Of a stretch of DNA of 64,000 bases, positions 12,501 through 62,692 are shown one piece after another (positions within the stretch are counted from its first letter, which is position 1; each line of letters opens with the position of its first letter). This DNA comes from Antedon mediterranea. Its lineage: Eukaryota > Echinodermata > Crinoidea > Comatulida > Antedonidae. A program made the translations under genes and the position numbers. The DNA lies in the NCBI RefSeq assembly GCF_964355755.1, contig NC_092676.1, forward strand, positions 7,732,288 to 7,796,287. Direction: 5' to 3'. The notes under the pieces were generated by a model. That model saw only the letters and a program-made list of their open reading frames with translations. It was not told where the DNA came from and did not search any database.

Positions 12501-15500
12501 AAAAATATCAAATATAGCAACAGCTTTGCAGCAGCTACAGGTAGCAGCTATATATAGCAGTTGATATACATTGGCAGCATTTGATACTAATACCTATTTT
12601 GATACTAAATTTACCTATTTTGATACATGTACATTTCCAGCATTTGATAGTTGCAATATTTGATATTAATTATGCTTTATAGCTGCTATTTTGATTGTTG
12701 CAATATTTGATATCAATTTCTTTTCATAGCAGCAATATCTGATAGTTGCTATATTTGATAGTTGCTATATTTGATAGTTGCTATATTTGATATAAATTTT
12801 GCTTCATAGCAGTCTGTATTTAGACAGATGTAGCTGCTATATTTGATAAATCAGTCTCAATCATTGATATGACCAATATTGCGCCTTCCTCAGAGAAACA
12901 AGGTTTGATCATCAGTGTGCTGATCACGGTACTGTACAATGATGCTGCATTGTTGTAGTTGGCATATCTTCTCATTTTTCACTTAGCGCCATTAAATCAG
13001 TGTTGTAATGGCTATGAGCGTTCACTGACTAAACACAGAGCCTCAGTGACTAAACACAGAGCCTCAGAGCTTAAGGGGCTCAGAGCAACTACCCAGCATG
13101 TTGGATGGCTCTAGAAGTGCTAAACCAGAGGCCCTTACCCTCTGTGTTACGCCACTTAACTGCATAAAATCATTTCTCACCTGTATATTGATATTTCTAA
13201 TGTGTTTTCTTCTGTTTCTACATCTGATTGTACTATTCCTTGTGGAGTAACCTTTAGAGAAACCTTGCCTAGCTTGGTGCCTTTGGCCTACAAATAAAGT
13301 GATCAACATATAAAATTATAAATCATTTTGTTCACCTATCACTTTTCCAAATTAATACTAGTTCAGGTAAATTGCAAGTAGATGGTTGGCTTGGGAATTG
13401 GGCTACTTTGCAATGTTTCTTTTGGTCCTGGATAACCCATAACAAGTCCTCACTCTTGATGGAGCTGCTTTCAGTCTCATGGAGATGCTCATAATGGATG
13501 TTCTTGGTGGAGTCTGCTCTCAATGAAGTTGCTCTCAGGAAGCTGCTCTTGATGAACCTCCTCTCAATGGAGCCACTCTCAATAGAGTTGATCTCTTGAT
13601 GGAGACACTCTCAATAGAGCTGATCTCTTATGATGGAGACGCTCTCAGTAGAGCTGATCTCTTGATGGAGCTGAACTCTCGATGGAGCTAAACTCTTGAT
13701 GGAGCTGATCTCTTGATGGAGCTGAAGTCTCGACGGAGCTGCTCTCGATGGAGCTGATCTCTTGATGGAGCGGAAGTCTCGATGAAGCTGATCTCTTGAT
13801 GGAGCTGGTCTCAAGGAGCTGATCTTTTGATGGAGCTGCTCCTATAGAGCTGCCCTAATTGGATCTGAAAGATCTGTTGATTGAGCTGCTCTAAATGATC
13901 TGTTGATTGAGCTGCTCTACAGTAAATGATCTCTTGATTGAGCTGCTCTACTAAATGATCTCTTGATTGAGCTGCTCTAAATGATCTCTTTATTGAGCTG
14001 CTCTAAATGATCTCTTTATTGAGCTGCTCTAAATGATCTCTTGATTGAGCTGCTCTACTAAATGATCTCTTGATTGAGCTGCTCTAAATGATCTCTTGAT
14101 TGAGCTGCTCTAAATGATCTCTTTATTGAGCTGCTCTAAATGATCTCTTTATTGAGCTGCTCTAAATGATCTCTTTATTGAGCTGCTCTAAATGATCTCT
14201 TGATTGAGCTGCTCTAAATGATCTCTAGATTGAGCTGCTCTAAATGATCTCTAGATTGAGCTGCTCTAAATGATCTTTTGATTGAGCTGCTCTAAAATGA
14301 TCTGTTGATGGAGCTGCTCTAAATGATCTGTTGATTGAGCTGCTCTAAATGATCTGTTGATTGAGCTGCTCTAAATGATCTGTTGATTGAGCTGCTCTAA
14401 ATGATCTCTTGATTGAGCTGCTTTAAAATGATCTCTTAATTGAGCTGCTCTAAATGGTCTCTTGATGGAGCTGCTCTAAATGATCTCTTGATGGAGCTGC
14501 TCTCAATAGAGCTGAATGATCTCTTGATTGAGTGGTTCTCAATGGAGCTGCTCTTGATGGAGCTGATGCCATTCTTGTGAACAGTTTGTAAAATCATAGA
14601 TTTACTAGATTAGATCTCTGCTTTACATTGTTTAAATAAAGTATTCCATCATGCTTAAAACTGTAAATATTTTTCATTACCTGATTTACAATTCTTTTGA
14701 CCGCTTCAGCAGTACAGCTCTCATCATTAGCTTTGTCAACCAATGACATTCCAATGTACTTCACATAGAATGTGATACCTTCTACAACAGGTTCTTTTGC
14801 CTTTTCCCAATCATCCTGAAATTCTACAAAACCAAAAGCAAGCAACACAATTAAACAGACTAGGAGCAACAAATGAGTGAAAGAATGGAAAGGACAAATA
14901 TTGAATGTTTACGCATTGGATTGTGAGAATATTTCATGATCTCCGCTCCGACTCGTTAAAAATAGAGAAGTCAATTTTTCAAAAAAGACACCTACTTTTA
15001 TTCAATTTACCATTAAATCATTGTCGAATGCTACAGTAAGCTTGGAAGCTCGGCCACTAAAAAAGACAGCGCTGCAACTTTAAACTAAAGTAGAACAGTT
15101 ACATAGACAGCGCATACAATTTTCGAACGCGTTCAGTCAACAACGTCGCTTGGCAAAAATTCTCAAAATGTTTTAGAATTAGAGGGCGTTAATTATCACC
15201 ATTAGGTTTGATATAATTGATATTTCCATAAGTAACATTTGATTAAAAATACAGTAAGATAGATAATAAATTCAAATATTTATTAGATTATTATTTGTGA
15301 AAATAGAAGGCAAAAATATCGAGTATTATAGAAAGTTGCTATAGGCAAGGGATTAGCCAGTTGCTATAGGCAAGGGATTAAGATTTAAAATAATAAAAAT
15401 AGGTTAAAGTTGAACATCACATCCAGGTCACTGTATATGGACTGTCAAGAAAACTATTAAATAGAGCTTAAAAGCAAGGTCAAAATGCTGGCACAATTTC

Positions 15501-43399: not shown

Positions 43400-44131
43400 C
43401 TTGGAAAATGTATAGACCATCAGATCTTTCCATTTAAATTGAGGAGAGTTCTCGGCTTGAAGTATTATTTTTATAAAATAATAAAATGTATCATATCTTA
43501 TCAATCTTAAATAATTATTCTTGTTTAAACTAGGAAGTAGGATATAGATATATGAAACAATTCACAATTTAGAACGTGTTTCCTTGTTTTTATGAGAAAC
43601 GATTATAAACCCCCTATTAAAAAATGGATTATTTGACACGGTCATAAAGTTCAGTACGTGCAGTTTTTCTGAATGAAAAATTAATTTCATTTCACGATTT
43701 TAATTCTTCTGAATTAAAAGTAAGTATTACAATTACGATCATTGACGCTAATAATGTTAATATAACGTATTCTAAAATTAGATTTGTATAATTGTGTTTT
43801 TGTTGAAGAATATTATATAAAAACGAGATATGTTATTCTCTAGGCCTGGCTGGGCCGGTTCGCTGGGCCTATTGAGTAGTGTGCATTGAGAGAGAGTGTT
43901 TGGACTAACTATAGATGTCTGTGTGTGGGTGTAGCTTCATTTGTATTTGCTATAACCAGGCTAGGCCTAGGAGCACTCGCATTATTTAATTTATCTATAT
44001 TTACCATTTGTATACAGTCTAAAAATGTCAATTTCACAAGTTTATTCGATTAAATACAGTTTATTTTCCTTTCATCATTATCATATTTCATTCATGATTC
44101 TATCTTTCATCCTACTTTTTTTCAGTAGAAT
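43400..44131. promoter_or_regulatory. Divergent promoter region of ACAT1 (minus) and macro-domain gene (plus)
   Basis: 732 bases separate the two start codons. The acceptor-like 'ctttttttcag' at 44114-44124 suggests a 5'-UTR intron for the macro gene, with its first exon perhaps near 43850-43980. No TATA box is clear. Confidence 0.45.
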
Positions 44132-47100
44132 ATGGATGTTATCTTAATAGATGCAAATGCCAAAAAAGAAGAAAAACATTTTATTATTAGAAAGAAGAAG
44201 AAAGAGGAGAGACGTGAACCAATAACAGTTTGTTATACATTACGAGATATAAACAAACAGCTAGTAAAAGCGTGGCAAGACATATTTGCCCCTCATCAAC
44301 ATGTTGTGGTATGATGAATTCTACACTTTAATCATTATTTAATTATTATTAATTATTTAATTTATTTATAACAAACTCAAGGGAAACTAAGCACCTTTTC
44401 TGTTTCTTAAGTTAAAAACTATAACATTACTTTATATTACATATTTATATTCATAGATAAGTGAAGGAGATATTTTTAAAGATGCACCTGCAACTGATGC
44501 AATAGTAAGTTATAAATTTTACCGATTTCAACACCCAAACTCAATTCTTAGAATTACAGTTATCCATTTTTAATACACCAAACATTTTTCGTTTCCCAAA
44601 TGTCTATAGTATTTATAGTCTTATTGTACAGAAAGTAAGGGTCATATGCAGTAAGCTACAGTATTAAGCTTGTTTAATCAACCCATTACCATCAAGATTG
44701 TGAAAGTGTATACATTTGTACTCTATACAGTGCTTTCCAAATAAATTCCACAAGATTCAATACTGTGTATTATTGTTGTGCTTAATTCTTCTGCTTTAAC
44801 TTGTTACTGTTTTTACTTATCACCACTTTAGGTATCACCGGCAAACAGTTTTGGTTTTATGGATGGCGGCATTGAATTAGCTTACTCAAGGCATTTTGGA
44901 CTGCAACTGTAAGTACTAAACAGGATGTGTATTTATAATGAATATAATTTATAACAAAGACTAACTTAAAATTCAAGATCTGTTTATTCAAGATAAGGAT
45001 TTAGGAGGGAAATTGTGTAACCATCAGACAAAGTCAACATGTACTCTGTATATACTTTTTTTTTTAGAATGAGTAGATTACAAGATGCTATTGATACTGA
45101 CAAAGATGGAGAATTATTAGTGGTGAATATTTCAATTATTATTCTAAATTTAGCAAAATTGCCAAGGATAGCCATAAGTGAATTCATTCACTGTTCTTCT
45201 CTCTTGAAATTATGTTCACATGAACAATAAGATGCTCTACATAAACAAGTCTTTGGGAGTGGGGTTGTACTACTACATATCATCTTGAGAAATTGTTTCG
45301 GCCAATGCAAGATATTTGTTGTATAGCTTATTGAGTTACAGTATACTGTGTATGAATCATCTTATGTTGGTCAGTAATGTCCAGTTATTTGTATTTGCCC
45401 AATGCAAGAGATTCTATGATAAAAAGATTACTGAGCTATTCTGTATATCAATCATCCTCTGTTGGTCAGTAATGTCCAGTTTTTTTTTGGCCAATGCAAG
45501 AGATTCTATGATTTATAGATTACGTAGCTATACTGTATATCAAGTATCCTCTGTTGGTCAGTAATGTCCGTTTTTTTACCAATGCAAGACATTCTATGAT
45601 ATATTACGGAGCTATACTGTATATCAATTATCATGTTGGTCAGTAATGTCCGTTTTTTTTACCAATGCAAGACATTCTATGATATATTACGGAGCTATAC
45701 TGTATATCAATTATCATGTTGGTCAGTAATGTCCAGTTTTTTTTTGTTGGCCAATGCAAGGGATTTTTTTATATAATGAGCTATACTGTGTATCAAGTAT
45801 ACTCTGTTGGTCAGTAATGTCCAGTTAATTTTTTCCATAGGGTGATGCCTTAATTCTTTCTACACATGAACACGTGTTTGGTAAAACAGAACAGTCTTCA
45901 TGGCAGGGATACAACCAGGACATACCAATCAAATATTTAATATCAGCACCAACGATGAGGGTTCCAATGGACGTGTCAAACACAATGAATGCCTATCTAG
46001 CATTTAGAGCTGTCATTTTAAAAGGTAACAGTTACACAAATTAAAAACTGTTAAAAACATATACCTGTAAATAAAAAATCCTAATATTAAAGATATAATT
46101 GTCCCCTTGAAAAAAAAATTGTTGTGGAATATACCACTGTATGTCACATAATAGTTATTGACCAAAAATTGAATTAAAAAAAACCATGTAATTTAAAGGA
46201 AAAAAATAGTAAAATTGTGTGCCATAACCTGGCCATAACCTAACCATTTATTTTGTCTGTTTTAAGTGAATTCATTGTTTTTGTTCAATGGAAGTGAATA
46301 ACTTCATTAAAACTTAAAACTGCAACATGGGCTGTTAATTAATGTGTCATGTTTTTTAGGACAATACATCTGTAAAAGAAAATGGCAGGTGGGTGCCTCC
46401 CACAAAACATATAAAAAAAACATCCATAACCTCTTTTCGAAGAATTTGCAATCGAGAAACATTACAATCATCTACTGTTGACTTCAATACATGAATATTT
46501 AAATACTGTATGTTTCCTTATAGTTAATAAACACAATAAGAACCCAGATAATGATCCTATAAGATCCGTACTGTGTCCTGGTCTAGCTACGTCATTCGGC
46601 AATATGGAACCAAGGCAATGTGCTTTACAGGTAATATACTTATACCAATACAGTAAATAATTTTGTTTGTATCATTAAAGACGGTCTGTCTCGATCACTA
46701 AAGTATATCTTCTTTTACAGATGAAGTATGCATATGAAATTTATGAATTAGGGTTACATAAGAATCTAAGGCATCCAGAATCTCTCGGTGAAGTCTGGGA
46801 AAAGCAACTAGCCCTGTCATCAATAGGTGGAAAGTAAGTATAGCATCCAGAGATACATTAGAGGGTGATGACACACCTGATTGAAGATACCATAGGGGGT
46901 TTGTAGAGTTTGAATGAACAGTAGAGGGTTAGGCCACACCCAATTGAAGATACCATAAGGGGTTCGTAGGGTTTGCATAAACTTTTATCTTGACGTAACA
47001 CTTTTAAACTAGGGACTAACAATTGTTTGGCCAATCTTACCAAGTTCTAGGCTAGACCAGATATAATTTTTTTCATCAGCATCTCCCTGTTACAACCTAG

Positions 47101-47738
47101 CTATGGGCTACATGATGATCAACTTGATAAATGAAATCTAAAGCGATCGCACTGGACTTAATTTGGTCAAAATAACCGAGCCGTCGGCTAAAGTGACCCA
47201 AGAAAAAGTCCAATCTGAACACTGGCCATAATTCCCTCAGGGTTAAATTAACCAAATCCAATAGTTACTTTTATCGACCATTTACCATGGTCTTGGTAAA
47301 ACTAACCGCGCGACTAAAAAGTCCAAACTGAACGTGCAACTCATGTTAACACGTGACATGCGAGTCAATCACGGTTAATTTTTTGTAAAATAACGGTAAA
47401 ACTAACTGCATAAAAAGTATGAGTGATGGTCAAATCTTCTAATAACATTGGGTAAAGCTACCAGTGCGAACAAAGCCTTATACTTATTAAGCAAGGCCTT
47501 ACTTGGGATAAAGTGGTTAAGGTTATTAAATGTGGTAGTGGTTAAGGTTATTAAATGTGGTAGTGGTTAAGGTTATTAAATGTGGTAGTGGTTAAGGTTA
47601 TTAAATGTGGTAGTGCTGTTGAAACAATAAAGGCTAGCTACTGTTTTTATTAAAAATACAGCTATTATAAGAAATTTGTTTACAGTACATATTTTTTTTA
47701 AACAATTTCTTTATAGAAGTGACCAGATTCAAATATAG
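44132..47738 (+). CDS. Macro-domain-like protein, predicted ADP-ribose binding, 8 exons
   Basis: Predicted 260-aa macro-fold protein; macro domains bind ADP-ribose or remove it from proteins and metabolites. Exons: 44132-44308, 44457-44504, 44832-44908, 45068-45122, 45841-46024, 46524-46630, 46721-46833, 47717-47738, with phases that close to the stop after KSDQIQI. Key segment at residues 76-88, VSPANSFGFMDGG followed by IELAYSRHFG, fits the macro-domain Asn plus Gly-rich ligand loop. Other blocks: CYTLRDINKQLVKAWQDIF, ISEGDIF, GDALILSTHEHVFG, YLISAPTMRVPMDVSNTMNAYLAFRA and RSVLCPGLATSFGNMEP. From memory this block order matches bacterial 'macro domain-containing' proteins more than well-known animal macroPARPs. 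A lysine-rich insert (about residues 11-31) follows the start. A 'ttttttcag' acceptor sits just before the ATG, suggesting a 5'-UTR intron. It is divergent from ACAT1, 732 bp apart. The exact substrate is unknown. Confidence 0.82.
45290..45838. repeat. About 95-bp tandem repeat, 5-6 copies, macro-gene intron 4
   Basis: Units contain 'gttggtcagtaatgtcc', 'ccaatgcaagagattctatg', 'gagctatactgtatatcaa'. The array ends at the acceptor of the exon starting at 45841, so its last unit forms the polypyrimidine tract and branch region. Confidence 0.85.
46088..46375. mobile_element. MITE family 'aagatgtattgtcc', copy e (inverted)
   Basis: Ends 'taaagatataattgtcccc' and 'ggacaatacatctgtaaa'. The interior blocks run in reverse order compared with the 2066 copy. 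In macro-gene intron 5. Confidence 0.75.
47505..47618. repeat. 25-bp tandem repeat, about 4 copies
   Basis: Perfect units of 'ggttattaaatgtggtag' plus 'tggttaa', in macro-gene intron 7. Identity between units implies recent expansion. Confidence 0.92.
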
Positions 47739-49650: not shown

Positions 49651-52170
49651 TTAGACATTTTGCATTGCTGCAACAATGATGCTGTCACCAACAGAACAGT
49701 CACTCTCTAACAGTAAGGTAGTGCCATCTGTGGATTGCATTATCACATGCTGGTTATTGGCAATGACATCACCAGAGTCCACTATCACATGCTGGTTATT
49801 GGCAATGACATCACCAGATTCCACTATCACTTGTTGGTTATCGGCAATGATGTCACCAGATTCCACTATCACATGCCGGTTATCGGCAATGATGTCACCA
49901 GATTCCACTATCACTTGTTGGTTATTGGCAATGACATCACCAGATTCCATTATCACATGCTGGTTATTAGCAATCATGTCACCAGATTCCACTATCACAT
50001 GCTGGTTATTGGCAATGATGTCACCAGATTCCACTATCACTTGTTGGTTATCGGCAATGATGTCACCAGATTCCACTATCACTTGTTGGTTATTGGCAAT
50101 GATGTCGCCAGATTCCACTATCACTTGTTGGTTATTGGCAATGACATCACCAGATTCCATTATCACATGCTGGTTATTGGCAATCATGTCACCAGATTCC
50201 ACTATCACTTGCTGGTTATTGGCAATGACATCACCAGATTCCACTATCACATGCTGGTTATCGGCAATGACATCACCAGATTCCACTATCACTTGTTGGT
50301 TATTGGCAATGACGTCACCAGATTCCACTATCACTTGCCGGTTATTGGCAATGACATCACCAGATTCCACTATCACATGCTGGTTATTGGCAATGATGTC
50401 ACCAGATTCCACTATCACTTGCTGGTTATTGGCAATGACATCACCAGATTCCACTATCATGTGTTGTTCATTATTTCCATCGATAGTAATACACTCATCA
50501 GCAGTCTGTAGAACCACATGCTGCTGCTGACCATCCGGTCCTTCTTGGACAAACACAGTTGGACCGTCTCCTTCCATTATTATCTGCTGACTACTGACTT
50601 TACCATTCTCGGAGACTGTCTGTAAATAAACCTGCTGCCCTGCCTCCAGGTTTTCTTTGTGTTGAACTACAATAGTCTGCCCATTTGATAAATAAATTTG
50701 GTGGTTGTCTTGCAGCATTGCTTGGTCCGTTTGTTGTACCTGACCTGGTTGACTATCTTCATTACCAACTGGTGGCTGTGACGATTTCTGCTGGCCATCT
50801 TCACACACCTGTACAATGTCTTTTACAGACAGTGTAGCGTCCTGGCAATCTTTTGATAATTGTTGGCACTGGTTGTCAGAATGGTTGTCCTCTTGTTCTT
50901 TCTCTGGAGGCACTGCATTAGATTCACTCTGTACTAATTCATTGACAGCCTCTTCCGACTCTGTCAAAACCATAACACTTTTTTTAGGAACTTGTGAAAG
51001 GGCAGTTTTAGCAATTGCATCTGATAGTGGCAACTTTTTCTTCACATTCTCTGACACAACAGGTTCACAAGTGGTGACTACCATCTCTCCTTCTTGTTCA
51101 TGGACATGGACAACCAAATGCACACCCTCTTTTGCTTCCTTTCTGGCTTTCTTTACCAAATTTCTAGCCGATATAATTGGTTGATCTATACATAATTGTG
51201 ATTCCTTTCTACGGTTACTTATCAGCGGTACTGCATTTTCTATTGATTCACCTTCTTTTTCTTTGTTCTCCACATGTTCTATAACTTTTTTAACAAATTC
51301 TATTTTATTTTTTCCAGGTTTATTCTGAATACAAGTGTTCCTTTTAGCCACATCTTTCACTAGTGGTTTCACAATGTAGTTCACGGTAAACCCAACCTCT
51401 CCATCATGAGTTCTTTGATGTTCTTTTAAAATATCCAGTAAAGCAAATGTTTTTTGACACATTAAGCAAGTGTAAACTTCCATGGGTTGGTTGTGAACCC
51501 TCACCATATGTTCCTTAAGGGGTTTCACTCTTAAAAATCGCCTATGACAAATGTTGCACTCCAGCGTTTGTAATGTATGCCATCGACTGTGAATTCGGAA
51601 CTCTGCAATATTTTGAAACTCTTGCTTACAAAAATCACAAGCATAAGAGCCGTGTGTTTTTTGGTGAGTCCTGAACTCTTTGTACGAATTGAGTATTTCT
51701 TGACAAAGATCACAGCAGAGTTCTTTTTCTGCAGTGCAGATGTACTGATGGCACATTATACTGGATCTCGAAAGGAACGTTTTCAGACAGGCATCACATT
51801 CATACTCCTCAGAGGTAAGTTCTTCTGTAGAAAAATTGCCATCACCTTGATCACTTCGGTATCTATATGGACGTTTTAAAGTTCTTCCAGACCTACTACT
51901 AGTTTGTGAACTAGGCTTACTACTATATTTTTTTGGGCTATCCTGTTGTACTGCTGATGACTCTTTGGTCACTATTTTTCGTGGCCGTCCCCTTTTTCGT
52001 TTAATCTTAGAATCTTTATTTGGTCGCTCATAATTATCAGTGGTAGTAATAGACCACCTAGGCCTACAGTCCTGTGATGGTAAACTATTCGATAGGCCTA
52101 CATCTTTATTTTGTTGTGCTTGTCTTATTTGCAGAGTTATGTCAGAAATTTTGTCCATGTTTGTGAACAT
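49651..52170 (-). CDS. C2H2 zinc-finger protein with AT-hook and 17 x 14-residue repeats (839 aa)
   Basis: Probable nuclear DNA-binding regulator; I do not recognise a specific orthologue. The whole ORF is one exon with ATG at 52170, and a 'gtttcag' acceptor lies about 16 bases upstream, so the upstream exon is UTR. Residues 59-65 (KRGRPRK) form an AT-hook. Fingers: 123-145 (atypical, last ligand Cys, YECDAC...HQYIC), 151-173, 177-198, 203-226 and 233-255, the last four with C-x2-C and H-x3/4-H spacing. Residues 260-480 are charged and low-complexity. Residues 480-565 are Q/V/E-rich. Residues about 571-808 are 17 near-perfect units of the type VIVESGDVIANNQQ. The end reads SIIVAAMQNV. The acidic Q-rich part could be an activation region, which is inference. 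Confidence 0.88.
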   Translation of the reverse strand: MFTNMDKISDITLQIRQAQQNKDVGLSNSLPSQDCRPRWSITTTDNYERPNKDSKIKRKRGRPRKIVTKESSAVQQDSPKKYSSKPSSQTSSRSGRTLKRPYRYRSDQGDGNFSTEELTSEEYECDACLKTFLSRSSIMCHQYICTAEKELCCDLCQEILNSYKEFRTHQKTHGSYACDFCKQEFQNIAEFRIHSRWHTLQTLECNICHRRFLRVKPLKEHMVRVHNQPMEVYTCLMCQKTFALLDILKEHQRTHDGEVGFTVNYIVKPLVKDVAKRNTCIQNKPGKNKIEFVKKVIEHVENKEKEGESIENAVPLISNRRKESQLCIDQPIISARNLVKKARKEAKEGVHLVVHVHEQEGEMVVTTCEPVVSENVKKKLPLSDAIAKTALSQVPKKSVMVLTESEEAVNELVQSESNAVPPEKEQEDNHSDNQCQQLSKDCQDATLSVKDIVQVCEDGQQKSSQPPVGNEDSQPGQVQQTDQAMLQDNHQIYLSNGQTIVVQHKENLEAGQQVYLQTVSENGKVSSQQIIMEGDGPTVFVQEGPDGQQQHVVLQTADECITIDGNNEQHMIVESGDVIANNQQVIVESGDIIANNQHVIVESGDVIANNRQVIVESGDVIANNQQVIVESGDVIADNQHVIVESGDVIANNQQVIVESGDMIANNQHVIMESGDVIANNQQVIVESGDIIANNQQVIVESGDIIADNQQVIVESGDIIANNQHVIVESGDMIANNQHVIMESGDVIANNQQVIVESGDIIADNRHVIVESGDIIADNQQVIVESGDVIANNQHVIVDSGDVIANNQHVIMQSTDGTTLLLESDCSVGDSIIVAAMQNV
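49747..50460 (-). repeat. In-frame 42-bp coding repeat array of the zinc-finger gene
   Basis: Seventeen tandem 42-bp units encode 14-residue repeats with a fixed core (VIV/M-ESGD-V/I/M-IA) and variable NNQQ, NNQH, DNQQ, DNRH or NNRQ linkers. Units 7-9 and 12-14 share the same variant order (M, then ME, then I), which indicates an internal duplication of five units. As 42 is divisible by three, the opposite strand also stays open over long stretches; those ORFs are shadows. The alternating hydrophobic pattern could form stacked beta strands. Confidence 0.95.
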
Positions 52171-52700
52171 TTGTTGTGATTTTAGTCTGAAACAAATAAA
52201 AAATTGAAGTTAAAACATCTATTGTTTTGAAATTAAATACTAAATAGGCCTAGGCCTAGGGCATAATTAATAAATACGTGATATTACCTGCTAACTGTAG
52301 GAAATATAACAGGACAGTGGCCACAGGCAGTGCTACTGCAGTTTCGCACCTAAAACTGGGCATAAGACTTCACGGTCACTCACCATCACCGCCAGGCAGC
52401 GGGTGAATGCTTTTAAATTGGGTAGGCCTAGGTAAGCTCGAGAGAGTGATGCGAAAGTGCATTATTTAAAGCCAGGTCTAGCTAGGTTAGGGCCTAGGCC
52501 TTATATCAAATAGCTAAGCTAGGCCTAGTGGCCCTATATTAAATAGCTAAGCTAGGCCTAGTAGTAGAATAAGTACCCTACGCAGCCGTTTTTCATATCG
52601 TATTTTAAAATTTTAATTGTACCTTGGCTCCTAGGCCCACTCTGATCTGGTTGACTATAGCTGAGACGCTTCCCGCTCGGCGCTGCTGCACAGTATAATC
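52171..52700 (-). promoter_or_regulatory. 5' UTR, intron and promoter region of the zinc-finger gene
   Basis: An acceptor near 52188 and a donor at 52288 (cagttagcag then gtaatat on the minus strand) define a short UTR intron. The upstream exon and promoter probably lie at 52288-52690, which is richer in CG than its surroundings and carries 'aggcctag'-type runs. A CGCCCTC word is at 52731-52737. No TATA box is evident. Confidence 0.45.
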
Positions 52701-57300: not shown

Positions 57301-60300
57301 CAGCATTTTACAAGGGTGGTCCATCCAGTCAGTGCTGATCATTGGGGACCCATTACAAGGGTGGTCCATCCAGTCAGTGCTGATCATTGGGGACCCATTA
57401 CAAGGGTGGTCCATCCAGTCGGTGCTGATCATTGGGGACCCATTACAAGGGTGGTCCATCCAGTCAGTGCTGATCATTGGGGACCCATTACAAGGGTGGT
57501 CCATCCAGTCAGTGCTGATCATTGGGGACCCATTACAAGGGTGGTCCATCCAGTCAGTGCTGATCATTGGGGACCCATTACAAGGGTGGTCCATCCAGTC
57601 GGTGCTGATCATTGGGGACCCATTACAAGGGTGGTCCATCCAGTCAGTGCTGATCATTGGGGACCCATTACAAGGGTGGTCCATCCAGTCGGTGCTGATC
57701 ATTGGGGACCCATTACAAGGGTGGTCCATCCAGTCAGTGCTGATCATTGGGGACCCATTACAAGGGTGGTCCATCCAGTCGGTGCTGATCATTGGGGACC
57801 CATTACAAGGGTGGTCCATCCAGTCAGTGCTGATCATTGGGGACCCATTACAAGGGTGGTCCATCCAGTCGGTGCTGATCATTGGGGACCCATTACAAGG
57901 GTGGTCCATCCAGTCGGTGCTGATCATTGGGGACCCATTACAAGGGTGGTCCATCCAGTCGGTGCTGATCATTGGGGACCCATTACAAGGGTGGTCCATC
58001 CAGTCGGTGCTGATCATTGGGGACCCATTACAAGGGTGGTCCATCCAGTCAGTGCTGATCATTGGGGACCCATTACAAGGGTGGTCCATCCAGTCAGTGC
58101 TGATCATTGGGGACCCATTACAAGGGTGGTCCATCCAGTCGGTGCTGATCATTGGGGACCCATTACAAGGGTGGTCCATCCAGTCAGTGCTGATCATTGG
58201 GGACCCATTACAAGGGTGGTCCATCCAGTCAGTGCTGATCATTGGGGACCCATTACAAGGGTGGTCCATCCAGTCAGTGCTGATCATTGGGGACCCATTA
58301 CAAGGGTGGTCCATCCAGTCGGTGCTGATCATTGGGGACCCATTACAAGGGTGGTCCATCCAGTCAGTGCTGATCATTGGGGACCCATTACAAGGGTGGT
58401 CCATCCAGTCGGTGCTGATCATTGGGGACCCATTACAAGGGTGGTCCATCCAGTCAGTGCTGATCATTGGGGACCCATTACAAGGGTGGTCCATCCAGTC
58501 GGTGCTGATCATTGGGGACCCATTACAAGGGTGGTCCATCCAGTCGGTGCTGATCATTGGGGACCCATTACAAGGGTGGTCCATCCAGTCGGTGCTGATC
58601 ATTGGGGACCCATTACAAGGGTGGTCCATCCAGTCGGTGCTGATCATTGGGGACCCATTACAAGGGTGGTCCATCCAGTCGGGGCTGATCATTGGGGACC
58701 CATTACAAGGGTGGTCCATCCAGTCGGTGCTGATCATTGGGGACCCATTACAAGGGTGGTCCATCCAGTCGGTGCTGATCAATGGGGACCCATTACAAGG
58801 GTGGTCCATCCAGTCGGTGCTGATCATTGGGGACCCATTACAAGGGTGGTCCATCCAGTCGGTGCTGATCATTGGGGACCCATTACAAGGGTGGTCCATC
58901 CAGTCGGTGCTGATCATTGGGGACCCATTACAAGGGTGGTCCATCCAGTCGGTGCTGATCATTGGGGACCCATTACAAGGGTGGTCCATCCAGTCGGTGC
59001 TGATCATTGGGGACCCATTACAAGGGTGGTCCATCCAGTCGGTGCTGATCATTGGGGACCCATTACAAGGGTGGTCCATCCAGTCGGTGCTGATCATTGG
59101 GGACCCATTACAAGGGTGGTCCATCCAGTCGGTGCTGATCATTGGGGACCCATTACAAGGGTGGTCCATCCAGTCGGTGCTGATCATTGGGGACCCATTA
59201 CAAGGGTGGTCCATCCAGTCAGTGCTGATCATTGGGGACCCATTACAAGGGTGGTCCATCCAGTCGGTGCTGATCATTGGGGACCCATTACAAGGGTGGT
59301 CCATCCAGTCGGTGCTGATCATTGGGGACCCATTACAAGGGTGGTCCATCCAGTCGGGGCTGATCATTGGGGACCCATTACAAGGGTGGTCCATCCAGTC
59401 AGTGCTGATCATTGGGGACCCATTACAAGGGTGGTCCATCCAGTCGGGGCTGATCATTGGGGACCCATTACAAGGGTGGTCCATCCAGTCAGTGCTGATC
59501 ATTGGGGACCCATTACAAGGGTGGTCCATCCAGTCAGTGCTGATCATTGGGGACCCATTACAAGGGTGGTCCATCCAGTCGGTGCTGATCATTGGGGACC
59601 CATTACAAGGGTGGTCCATCCAGTCGGTGCTGATCATTGGGGACCCATTACAAGGGTGGTCCATCCAGTCGGTGCTGATCATTGGGGACCCATTACAAGG
59701 GTGGTCCATCCAGTCAGTGCTGATCATTGGGGACCCATTACAAGGGTGGTCCATCCAGTCAGTGCTGATCATTGGGAACCCATTACAAGGGTGGTCCATC
59801 CAGTCAGTGCTGATCATTGGGGACCCATTACAAGGGTGGTCCATCCAGTCGGTGCTGATCATTGGGGACCCATTACAAGGGTGGTCCATCCAGTCAGTGC
59901 TGATCATTGGGGACCCATTACAAGGGTGGTCCATCCAGTCGGTGCTGATCATTGGGGACCCATTACAAGGGTGGTCCATCCAGTCGGTGCTGATCATTGG
60001 GGACCCATTACAAGGGTGGTCCATCCAGTCGGTGCTGATCATTGGGGACCCATTACAAGGGTGGTCCATCCAGTCGGTGCTGATCATTGGGGACCCATTA
60101 CAAGGGTGGTCCATCCAGTCGGTGCTGATCATTGGGGACCCATTACAAGGGTGGTCCATCCAGTCGGTGCTGATCATTGGGGACCCATTACAAGGGTGGT
60201 CCATCCAGTCGGTGCTGATCATTGGGGACCCATTACAAGGGTGGTCCATCCAGTCGGTGCTGATCATTGGGGACCCATTACAAGGGTGGTCCATCCAGTC

Positions 60301-62692
60301 GGTGCTGATCATTGGGGACCCATTACAAGGGTGGTCCATCCAGTCGGTGCTGATCATTGGGGACCCATTACAAGGGTGGTCCATCCAGTCGGTGCTGATC
60401 ATTGGGGACCCATTACAAGGGTGGTCCATCCAGTCGGTGCTGATCATTGGGGACCCATTACAAGGGTGGTCCATCCAGTCGGTGCTGATCATTGGGGACC
60501 CTAAACAAAATACAATTTCACATTAAAATACAACAATTAAAATAAAATTAAAATAAATAGAATTAATACAAATTTTTTTTAAATAAATAAATAATTATCA
60601 AAGTGACAATTAAAAATTTCAAAATATATACAATTCTTTTGTCTTTATATTAATTTTAAACAAATAAACAATTATAGTATCTAATAGATAATTATAGAAC
60701 TAATCAATATATTTATATTCATACAGTAGATTTTTGTTTTTCAGTGTAGAAGATGTGTTGAGATGGTCCTGGCTGGTTCATTACTCGTGCCATCATTATT
60801 TCTTCTTGAATTTTTTTCTGTTCTTTCACACGCTTTTTAAGTTCATGCTTATCAAAGCCACTTTCTTGCAACAGCTTTTCTTCAAGTTTCTGAAATCAAT
60901 CAAATACAATCATTACCACAAATTTCTTTTTATTTTTACTAATTATTTAATTTTAATTTTTTTTAAATTTCATATGCATCCAACAGTGAGAAAATCACCA
61001 ATTACATGATGGATAAACTATTCAATAATTTATCATGCTTATAAACTAAGTATCATTTGAGGCTTAGACAGTGGATTGAATAAGTTGTGTGTTACAACTC
61101 TGGAACTAGGTCAAAATTAAACTGTTGATGTTTGCTGATTTTGGTCGAAATACAGGGCTCGAAATTCAAGCTAGCAAACTAGCAATTTGCTAGTAAATTA
61201 GTCATGATTGCTAGTTGAACATTTTAAAACTAGCAAATGTTTGCTAGTTGTTATTTTACATAGGAAAGGTAGGCTTGATCTACCAATTCCAATACATGTT
61301 GAATTGAATTGAAAACAGACTAAACCTCTGTCTACACTATCAAACTTTATGTAACATAAAAATATGATGTTCCCATATATGGACATGATGTCATATCACT
61401 ACCATATTTAGACATATCACTACCATATAGGCACATCACATTTGTCACATCAAACTAATTGTAAATTAGTAATGGTATGCAATGCTAATTTTGTTTGTTA
61501 ATGAGGCTATTTTGAATATTATTGAGTTTATTATTTGTAATCTAAAGCTCTGTCTACACTATCAAACTAAAAAAAAGTGTGATGTGCCCAAATATGGTAG
61601 TGATATGACATCCATATATAGGCACATCACAATTTTTTTGTCACATAAAGTAGTAGACAGAGCTTAACAACAAAACTAGAATTGGACCATTATATCTACT
61701 GCTGTACCTTATCTTTGAGTTTCTTTTTACTAGCTTTGTCTTTTGGTACAACTAAGATGGAGTCAGGTTGATCAGTACTTTTTAGCTCTTTCCTTTTTTT
61801 GCCAGGACTTGCAGGATTCTCTGCACCCTCAGTTTTGGTCCGATTATGCTAGAAGACAAAATTAAATTATTTGAAAAACAGGCATACAATGAATGTTACG
61901 TTTACAGTATTTTTATTTTAAACACATCATGAATTCTAAACCGCCCGGTGATATACTGAAATTTAATTAATTAATTTGAAACGATTAAGATGAGGAAATC
62001 TATGAGAATGAGAAAAAGTCGCCCCAACTGCAGATTTCCTAACCATTAGACCACTGGAGTTTTCATGGTATTGTTCAAACTCGATTGGATAGCGACTCTT
62101 TAACATTCTCGGATAGATATATTTATTAATCATCATATATAACAAAAGATTCTTCTGCTTAAAAATCATTAGCACAAACAACTTTATAAAGTAAATCAGT
62201 TTGATGTAAAACCTACTTTTTTAACATAAAAAATATACAATCTTTTGTAATTCATTCATATATAGGTATTTGGCATTCGACAGTTGAAAAAAAAAAAATT
62301 AAAAAAAATTATCTGATGTATTTTAACAGTATGGTCAAGGAAATCTAACAACAGGACGCTGAGCTCGTCTTGCCAAAATATGAACTCGTAACAGTCCTTT
62401 GATCTTATGTCTGGCTGCAACAAATACCAACAGTACTGTGTTATGTACATATTCTCTGTGGCGCGCAGTTTCTGTAAGGAGAGTGGAACTGATAGTGTCG
62501 CAGCCACAGATAAACACTTTGATCTCCAGAGCTCAGCACCTTGTTGTTAGACTGCCTTGGTATGTGTGTGTAGTGTACCTTAAACCTAACTTCCTTCTTC
62601 ACTCGCGTAGGTGAAACTTCTCTACCAATGGCGCCAGTAGATTGTGAATGCTTCCCTTTTCTCTTAGCATTTTCCTTTTCTTGGTATTTTCT
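54323..62692 (-). CDS. ANKRD6: ANKRD6/Diversin homologue, C-terminal four exons (N-terminus beyond window)
   Basis: Diversin-type scaffold acting in Wnt/planar cell polarity signalling in vertebrates. Exons on the minus strand: 62692-62579, 61848-61708, 60889-60725, 57160-54323, all joining in phase 0 (1085 residues). The large last exon opens with KSSVGCNCTPQLLQIQNKV and a coiled coil to about residue 115, including KERIHAEQTECLHRLHH. This matches the human ANKRD6 segment with INGCRC and RLSAERTECLNRL. The three smaller exons are lysine-rich linkers such as SPGKKRKELK and KHELKKRVKEQKKIQEE. The remaining 830 residues are disordered, Ser/Pro/Asn-rich, with repeated SVSP/SMSP motifs, and end STRRPFSTFGY. 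Ankyrin repeats are not in this window. The last intron (57161-60724) contains the 45-bp array. The exon ending at 60725 has an in-frame stop four bases on (QKSTV), a possible alternative end. Confidence 0.85.
57301..60500. repeat. 45-bp minisatellite, about 71 copies, in ANKRD6 last intron
   Basis: About 3.2 kb of near-identical 45-bp units (core gtggtccatccagtc then R-gtgctgatcattgggg). The main variation is A or G at unit position 16; rarer variants are gggg (units 31, 46 and 48), aatggg (unit 33) and gggaacc (unit 55). All three frames on the plus strand and one on the minus stay open because 45 is divisible by three, giving spurious ORFs above 1000 codons. Its boundaries are sharp, and it lies between splice sites of ANKRD6. 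Confidence 0.98.
61005..61120 (-). mobile_element. SINE family A, tail fragment
   Basis: The reverse complement of 'tttatcatgcttataaacta' and neighbouring words matches the tail of the 4497 copy. The tRNA-like head is lost. In ANKRD6 intron. Confidence 0.65.
61323..61475. mobile_element. TTAA-type MITE
   Basis: Left arm 'ctctgtctacactatcaaac'. The middle has two overlapping 'catatcactaccatat' words. The right arm ends at 'cacatcaaacta' and lacks the terminal gtagacag block. Confidence 0.75.
61545..61668. mobile_element. TTAA-type MITE
   Basis: Left arm 'aagctctgtctacactatca', centre 'caaatatggtagtgatatga', right arm 'gtagacagagctta'. Only 40 bp from ANKRD6 exon 61708-61848. Confidence 0.85.
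62334..62562. mobile_element. Inverted-repeat element beside ANKRD6 exon 62579-62692
   Basis: The left arm ('caaggaaatctaacaacagg', 'cgctgagct') pairs with the right arm ('agctcagcac', 'ttgttgttagactgccttgg'). It ends 17 bases from the exon donor. Confidence 0.75.

Follow-up and report, generated by a model that had tools for sequence, protein, structure and literature searches.

An intron-split animal gene for a macro-domain protein of a bacterial and phage kind, with glutamate in place of a near-invariant aspartate

The stretch of DNA analysed here (64,000 nucleotides, called the window below) carries on its plus strand, at 44132-47738, an animal gene whose eight spliced exons encode a macro-domain protein of 260 residues. 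By sequence comparison the gene is of a kind whose other members met here are bacterial, archaeal and phage ones, with a distant one in yeast. The protein keeps the ligand-binding motifs of this family and has a glutamate, Glu90, at the position of the proposed catalytic aspartate. Such a protein is already known as a kind, and the novelty is the animal variant. We propose that it represents an intron-bearing gene for a stand-alone cd02900 / PHROG 2613 macro protein, nearest in structure to yeast YMR087W, which would have been acquired from bacteria and whose product would bind, and probably hydrolyse, an ADP-ribose derivative; taken as a whole, we regard this reading as evenly poised.

The spliced reading frame is stop-free, its phases are consistent, and every one of the seven introns has GT-AG borders. 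The features of the locus are as follows.

44113..44125, plus strand: probable acceptor of a 5'-UTR intron; polypyrimidine tract and CAG, read directly
44132..44308, plus strand: coding exon 1; start codon, basic N-terminal extension of about 30 residues (RKKKKEERR), first strand and helix of the macro domain
44457..44504, plus strand: coding exon 2; ISEGDIFKDAPATDAI; weak tblastn match, in place
44832..44908, plus strand: coding exon 3; active-site motif SPANSFGFMDGGIE, with Asn80 kept and Glu90 replacing the near-invariant Asp
45068..45122, plus strand: coding exon 4; RLQDAIDTDKDGELLV; based on phase and alignment
45342..45834, strand not applicable: tandem repeat of 83 bp x 5.6, which takes up the larger part of intron 4, with no coding role seen
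45841..46024, plus strand: coding exon 5; 17-residue exonic insertion (about residues 131-147), then the YLISAPTMRVP and NAYLAFRA blocks
46524..46630, plus strand: coding exon 6; PGLATSFGNM, the second ligand loop
46721..46833, plus strand: coding exon 7; C-terminal helices
47717..47738, plus strand: coding exon 8; 6 residues and the stop; consensus donor, good acceptor

When the proteins of bacterial and phage relatives were compared by tblastn with the raw window, exons 1, 2, 3, 5 and 6 were matched in order on the plus strand, at E 2e-4 for exon 1, 4e-10 for exon 3, 5e-12 for exon 5 and 3e-12 for exon 6, and weakly (E 0.9-2.7), though in the correct place, for exon 2; the same proteins reversed, as a control, gave no match to the raw window below E 0.6. 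Exons 4 and 7, whose own tblastn matches are not significant, are backed by phase and by gap-free alignment to the relatives across the junctions, and for the last six residues, in exon 8, no homology support was found among the relatives; the intron between exons 7 and 8, if retained, would bring an immediate stop. The start codon is bounded by an in-frame TAG at 44126, six bases 5' of the ATG, and, since this TAG directly follows a likely 3' splice site, an intron in the 5'-UTR is probable. The 17-residue insertion was considered as a missed intron and rejected, the sole internal GT...AG being, by eye, of about 26 bases. The basic N-terminal extension is missing from the bacterial relatives. 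The eight phase-consistent exons of an earlier note on this DNA agree with the GT-AG model and, for exons 1, 2, 3, 5 and 6, with the tblastn comparison, and the block motifs which it had named are all present in the spliced protein.

Membership in the macro-domain family, which that note had also claimed, is borne out by the PHROG 2613 profile (E 4.8e-48) and by Pfam Macro (PF01661), with which the animal protein scores a weak 23.2 bits, just above the curated cut-off of 22; the same Pfam model matches 71 of 73 relatives at E 1e-3. Pfam Macro_2 (PF14519) gives the animal protein 25.1 bits, just under its cut-off of 27, which the bacterial-type relative L034 exceeds with 27.8 bits. The cd02900 label has its basis in the annotation of one phage relative, where cd02900 Macro_Appr_pase is named. 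The best prokaryotic relative is 53% identical over about 200 residues, and the phage and plasmid relatives are 27-41% identical, those of Sinorhizobium phage phiM12, Microcystis phage Mae-JY35 and Gifsy-1 reaching 35-41%; in the scan of viral sequences no relatives appeared with a single protein query, and they did appear with an alignment-based one. The bacterial and archaeal genomes searched gave 463 relative-encoding stretches. Their distribution in bacteria is patchy: among Myxococcota, 24 of the 377 genomes sampled had matches, and among Acidobacteriota, 6 of the 396, some genomes having four or five. The block order, described in that note as a bacterial one, is common to the bacterial and phage relatives in PHROG 2613. 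A literature search on cd02900, or on PHROG 2613-type macro proteins in invertebrates, found nothing relevant, and further animals may well hold unnoticed copies of such a gene. On a viral contig of 343 kb, a phage relative (L113:2989-3696) with a gene resembling DNA polymerase III nearby has an insertion of its own at the same loop as the animal protein.

By profile, the solved structure nearest to the family is that of YMR087W (E 2e-15). The AlphaFold model of L034, the 53%-identical relative (pLDDT 96.7), has 1njr, which is YMR087W, as its best match (Foldseek E 6e-12). Structural alignment gave it Z 19.5 across 185 residues, the next best structure reaching 16.9, and this match covers residues 3-201 of the model, where most other macro domains run from about 16-28 to 180. 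The modelled relative has the alpha/beta/alpha macro fold. YMR087W is described as the sole studied Macro2-type protein, an ADP-ribose-1''-phosphate phosphatase in which de-mono-ADP-ribosylation activity is absent (PMC6397177). The animal protein may hydrolyse ADP-ribose-1''-phosphate. The tRNA 2'-phosphotransferase (PF01885) was not found in an exon-wise search of the genome, a result which says little about the Appr-1''-p route, since exon-wise searches are weak.

Column conservation was taken from 144 non-redundant relatives (below 90% pairwise identity). It reaches 85% or more in 39 columns of the family, of which the animal protein keeps 38, and Asn80 is kept. The conservation of some neighbouring columns (about 78-86) is inflated by their presence in the search pattern, outside which column 90 lies. 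The lone exception is position 90, which is Glu in the animal protein and Asp in yeast and in 143 of the 144 relatives. This Asp, which follows the MDGG loop and which the animal protein lacks, is near-invariant among the relatives here and is not a published defining feature; in a profile alignment its column falls on the catalytic-helix Asp of a Zn-dependent MacroD-type protein (5kiv). For the YMR087W structure a triad of Asn80, Asp90 and His145 was reportedly proposed (Kumaran et al. 2005). In the animal protein Asn80 of this triad is kept, Asp90 is changed to Glu, and the position of His145 is taken by Ser154; most bacterial relatives are likewise without His there. The MacroD type is characterised by a triple glycine followed by an xDx4H dyad (PMC7729036). 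This dyad is absent from the animal protein: MDGGIELAYSRH lacks the Asp, and the residue at +5 from position 90, in a column that varies within the family, is not His. The second glycine loop (PGLATSFGNM) was also considered as damaged, and this was rejected, as the bacterial family shows the same PGLxTxxGxM pattern.

With the proposed catalytic Asp changed, activity may be lost, and the protein could then be a pure ADP-ribose reader, with catalysis ended by Glu90 and binding maintained by Asn80 and the loops; like macroH2A1.1, it would sense a free derivative of ADP-ribose or targets that are ADP-ribosylated. We take this to be possible, if on the doubtful side: it is the proposed catalytic acid on which the lone change among strongly conserved columns falls, in the DNA-pattern scan of IMG/VR the motif just before this position had Asp after it in at least 120 cases and Glu in none, and the sole other Glu90 found is in a copy (L206) that has also lost Asn80. 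However, Glu also carries a carboxylate, and activity is possible in viral MacroD enzymes that lack the Asp (PMC7050489), so that inactivity is not readable from the sequence, and the part played by Asp90 is itself a putative one, since the family does not conserve the His of the xDx4H dyad.

For the enzymatic reading, the macro cleft would bind an ADP-ribose derivative, with Asn80 and the PGLxTxxG loop holding the distal ribose and the diphosphate; the protein would probably hydrolyse an ADP-ribose adduct, whether small or macromolecular, at a bond of the distal ribose, and Glu90 would substitute for the family's Asp in catalysis. Such a role is suggested by homology and by gene context. In two Myxococcota the gene next downstream of a WGR-PARP gene encodes a macro protein of a sister subfamily, whose motif is PTN(S/A)RG or similar: the WGR-PARP_reg-PARP gene at L210:5-1447 is followed by a macro gene ending at 2289, and that at L220:59-1483 by one ending at 2238. 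These are likely to be bacterial PARP writer/eraser or writer/reader pairs. A Streptomyces plasmid protein (L011:2962-5367) joins an N-terminal macro domain of the family, from this same sister subfamily, to a C-terminal ART ADP-ribosyltransferase domain; its middle has, by eye, a uracil-DNA-glycosylase-like stretch, where Pfam gave no match. A role in countering host defence based on NAD or ADP-ribose has been ascribed to phage macro proteins (PMC9503650), and the PARP/ART context together with this literature supports ADP-ribose chemistry as a probable property of the family. For the animal protein this context is indirect, since the closest relatives adjoin unrelated genes (a P450, an oxygenase and others) with no ADP-ribose theme.

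As to the origin of the gene, an old acquisition of a bacterial type seems to us most likely from the tree. It has 76 rows, with prokaryotes, viruses and one yeast sequence as the comparison set, and the animal sequence pairs in it with the Myxococcales sequence L033 (bootstrap/SH-aLRT 86/82), within a clade of seven rows with Acidobacteriota and others (93/86), which lies inside a bacterial and phage clade of 33 rows (81/98); none of these three branches is starred. The animal sequence is nested in this way among Acidobacteriota and Myxococcota sequences. It would be logical to suggest an ancient acquisition of the gene, from a bacterium or from a phage carrying a bacterial gene, and that introns, the basic N-terminal extension and the 17-residue loop were gained afterwards. 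Somewhat unlikely in our view is that it descends vertically as a Macro2-type gene orthologous to YMR087W that vertebrates have lost and the present lineage has retained, with no transfer into animals. Such descent would agree with YMR087W being the closest solved structure of the family, with the three Asgard-archaeal members which we found, and with the forced animal and yeast clade, which comes out 2.4 log units worse and which the test does not reject (p-AU 0.39), though the test has little power, the yeast branch being extremely long (5.4). Against it, the protein is 53% identical to bacterial proteins and only weakly similar to the yeast one (phmmer E 1e-4), and the free tree nests the animal row in the bacterial clade, apart from the yeast and Asgard rows. 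The old transfer which the earlier note had called possible is backed by the nesting among bacteria, on unstarred branches, with the animal and yeast grouping not rejected.

A diverged protein of an ordinary animal macro class (MacroD, TARG1, PARP14 or macroH2A) could be argued from the 27 canonical macro exon matches of the genome, but it is very improbable here: these exons are located elsewhere, the Macro model reaches E 1e-3 with none of the macro gene's own exons, and the phage and bacterial family matches far better. A Macro_2 search of the same genome gave nothing beyond exon 3 of the macro gene, at E 0.75, and phmmer of the protein against the PDB matched no human chain, which fits the earlier remark that no human orthologue was known. 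On profile and structure comparison the ordinary classes were rejected, the protein not being of the MacroD, PARP or macroH2A type that would have spoken for ordinary animal descent.

The macro gene, single copy in the assembly searched (354 Mb in 18 contigs, with the window on contig C7), stands head to head with an intron-split ACAT-like thiolase gene (43401, minus strand, against 44132, plus strand, about 0.73 kb apart), and the two possibly share a promoter; more distant are exons of NOP9 and of UPF0489/C5orf22. With ordinary animal genes as its neighbours, the macro gene is a resident, as claimed before on its introns, and the 38 Wnt family matches of the same assembly point to an animal source. 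Contamination by DNA of bacteria or phages could appeal to the 53% identity to bacteria, and so could a recent insertion that has kept its bacterial form, but both are practically out of the question, given seven introns with animal-type splice sites, intron-bearing neighbours including the head-to-head thiolase gene, a chromosome-scale contig and the many Wnt exons. Elsewhere in the window, a 45-bp minisatellite (57308-60501; 71 copies, 98% matches, G+C locally up to about 49%) is open in several frames on both strands and produces long spurious ORFs. A C2H2 zinc-finger gene (minus-strand ORF 49654-52209) has a C-terminal coding tandem repeat at 49733-50459, with 17 copies of a 14-residue (42-bp) unit (NNQHVIVESGDVIA), and a 26-bp tandem repeat (13864-14507; 24 copies, 93% matches) is adjoined by related diverged arrays from 13514.

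Macro domains read or remove ADP-ribosylation in DNA repair and antiviral defence, and to our knowledge the known human macro set holds no member of the bacterial and phage branch. With a member of this branch, animals would have one more kind of macro protein, and the exchange of Asp for Glu at the proposed catalytic acid, with the other strongly conserved columns kept, would make a clean case of a passage from enzyme to reader or to new chemistry. The uncharacterised phage family PHROG 2613 also gains a eukaryotic entry point. We may even suggest, as a distinctly unlikely extension, that some invertebrate lineage domesticated a macro domain of bacterial or phage origin which, with its acid swapped, became a dedicated reader or a re-specialised eraser of ADP-ribose adducts, possibly in the nucleus (in view of the basic N-terminus), with an immune or RNA-repair role which vertebrates lack.

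Among known systems, the bacterial WGR-PARP and macro pairs have as macro partner a distant member of the same family, about 31% identical to the animal protein and carrying the variant motif given above, whereas no PARP adjoins the animal gene. The MacroD-type hydrolases (human MACROD1/2, E. coli YmdB) share with the PHROG 2613 family the macro fold and an Asp in the helix that follows the glycine loop; the family, however, is without the His of the classic dyad and the animal protein without the Asp too, and the profile and structural match of the MacroD type to the family is weaker than that of YMR087W. Yeast YMR087W (PDB 1njr, 1txz, 1ty8) has, like the animal protein, Asn80 and a Gly-rich loop, and a loop is enlarged in it too at the site of the animal insertion, but it has Asp90 and His145 against Glu90 and Ser154, and the sequence similarity is weak. 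With the bacterial and phage proteins of PHROG 2613 / cd02900 (Gifsy-1, phiM12, Microcystis phage, Myxococcales) the animal protein differs in having Glu90 instead of Asp, the 17-residue insertion, the basic N-terminus of about 30 residues and seven introns, and has in common the core length and the block order VSPANSFGFMDGG(I/V)D, APTMRVP, PGLxTxxGxM.
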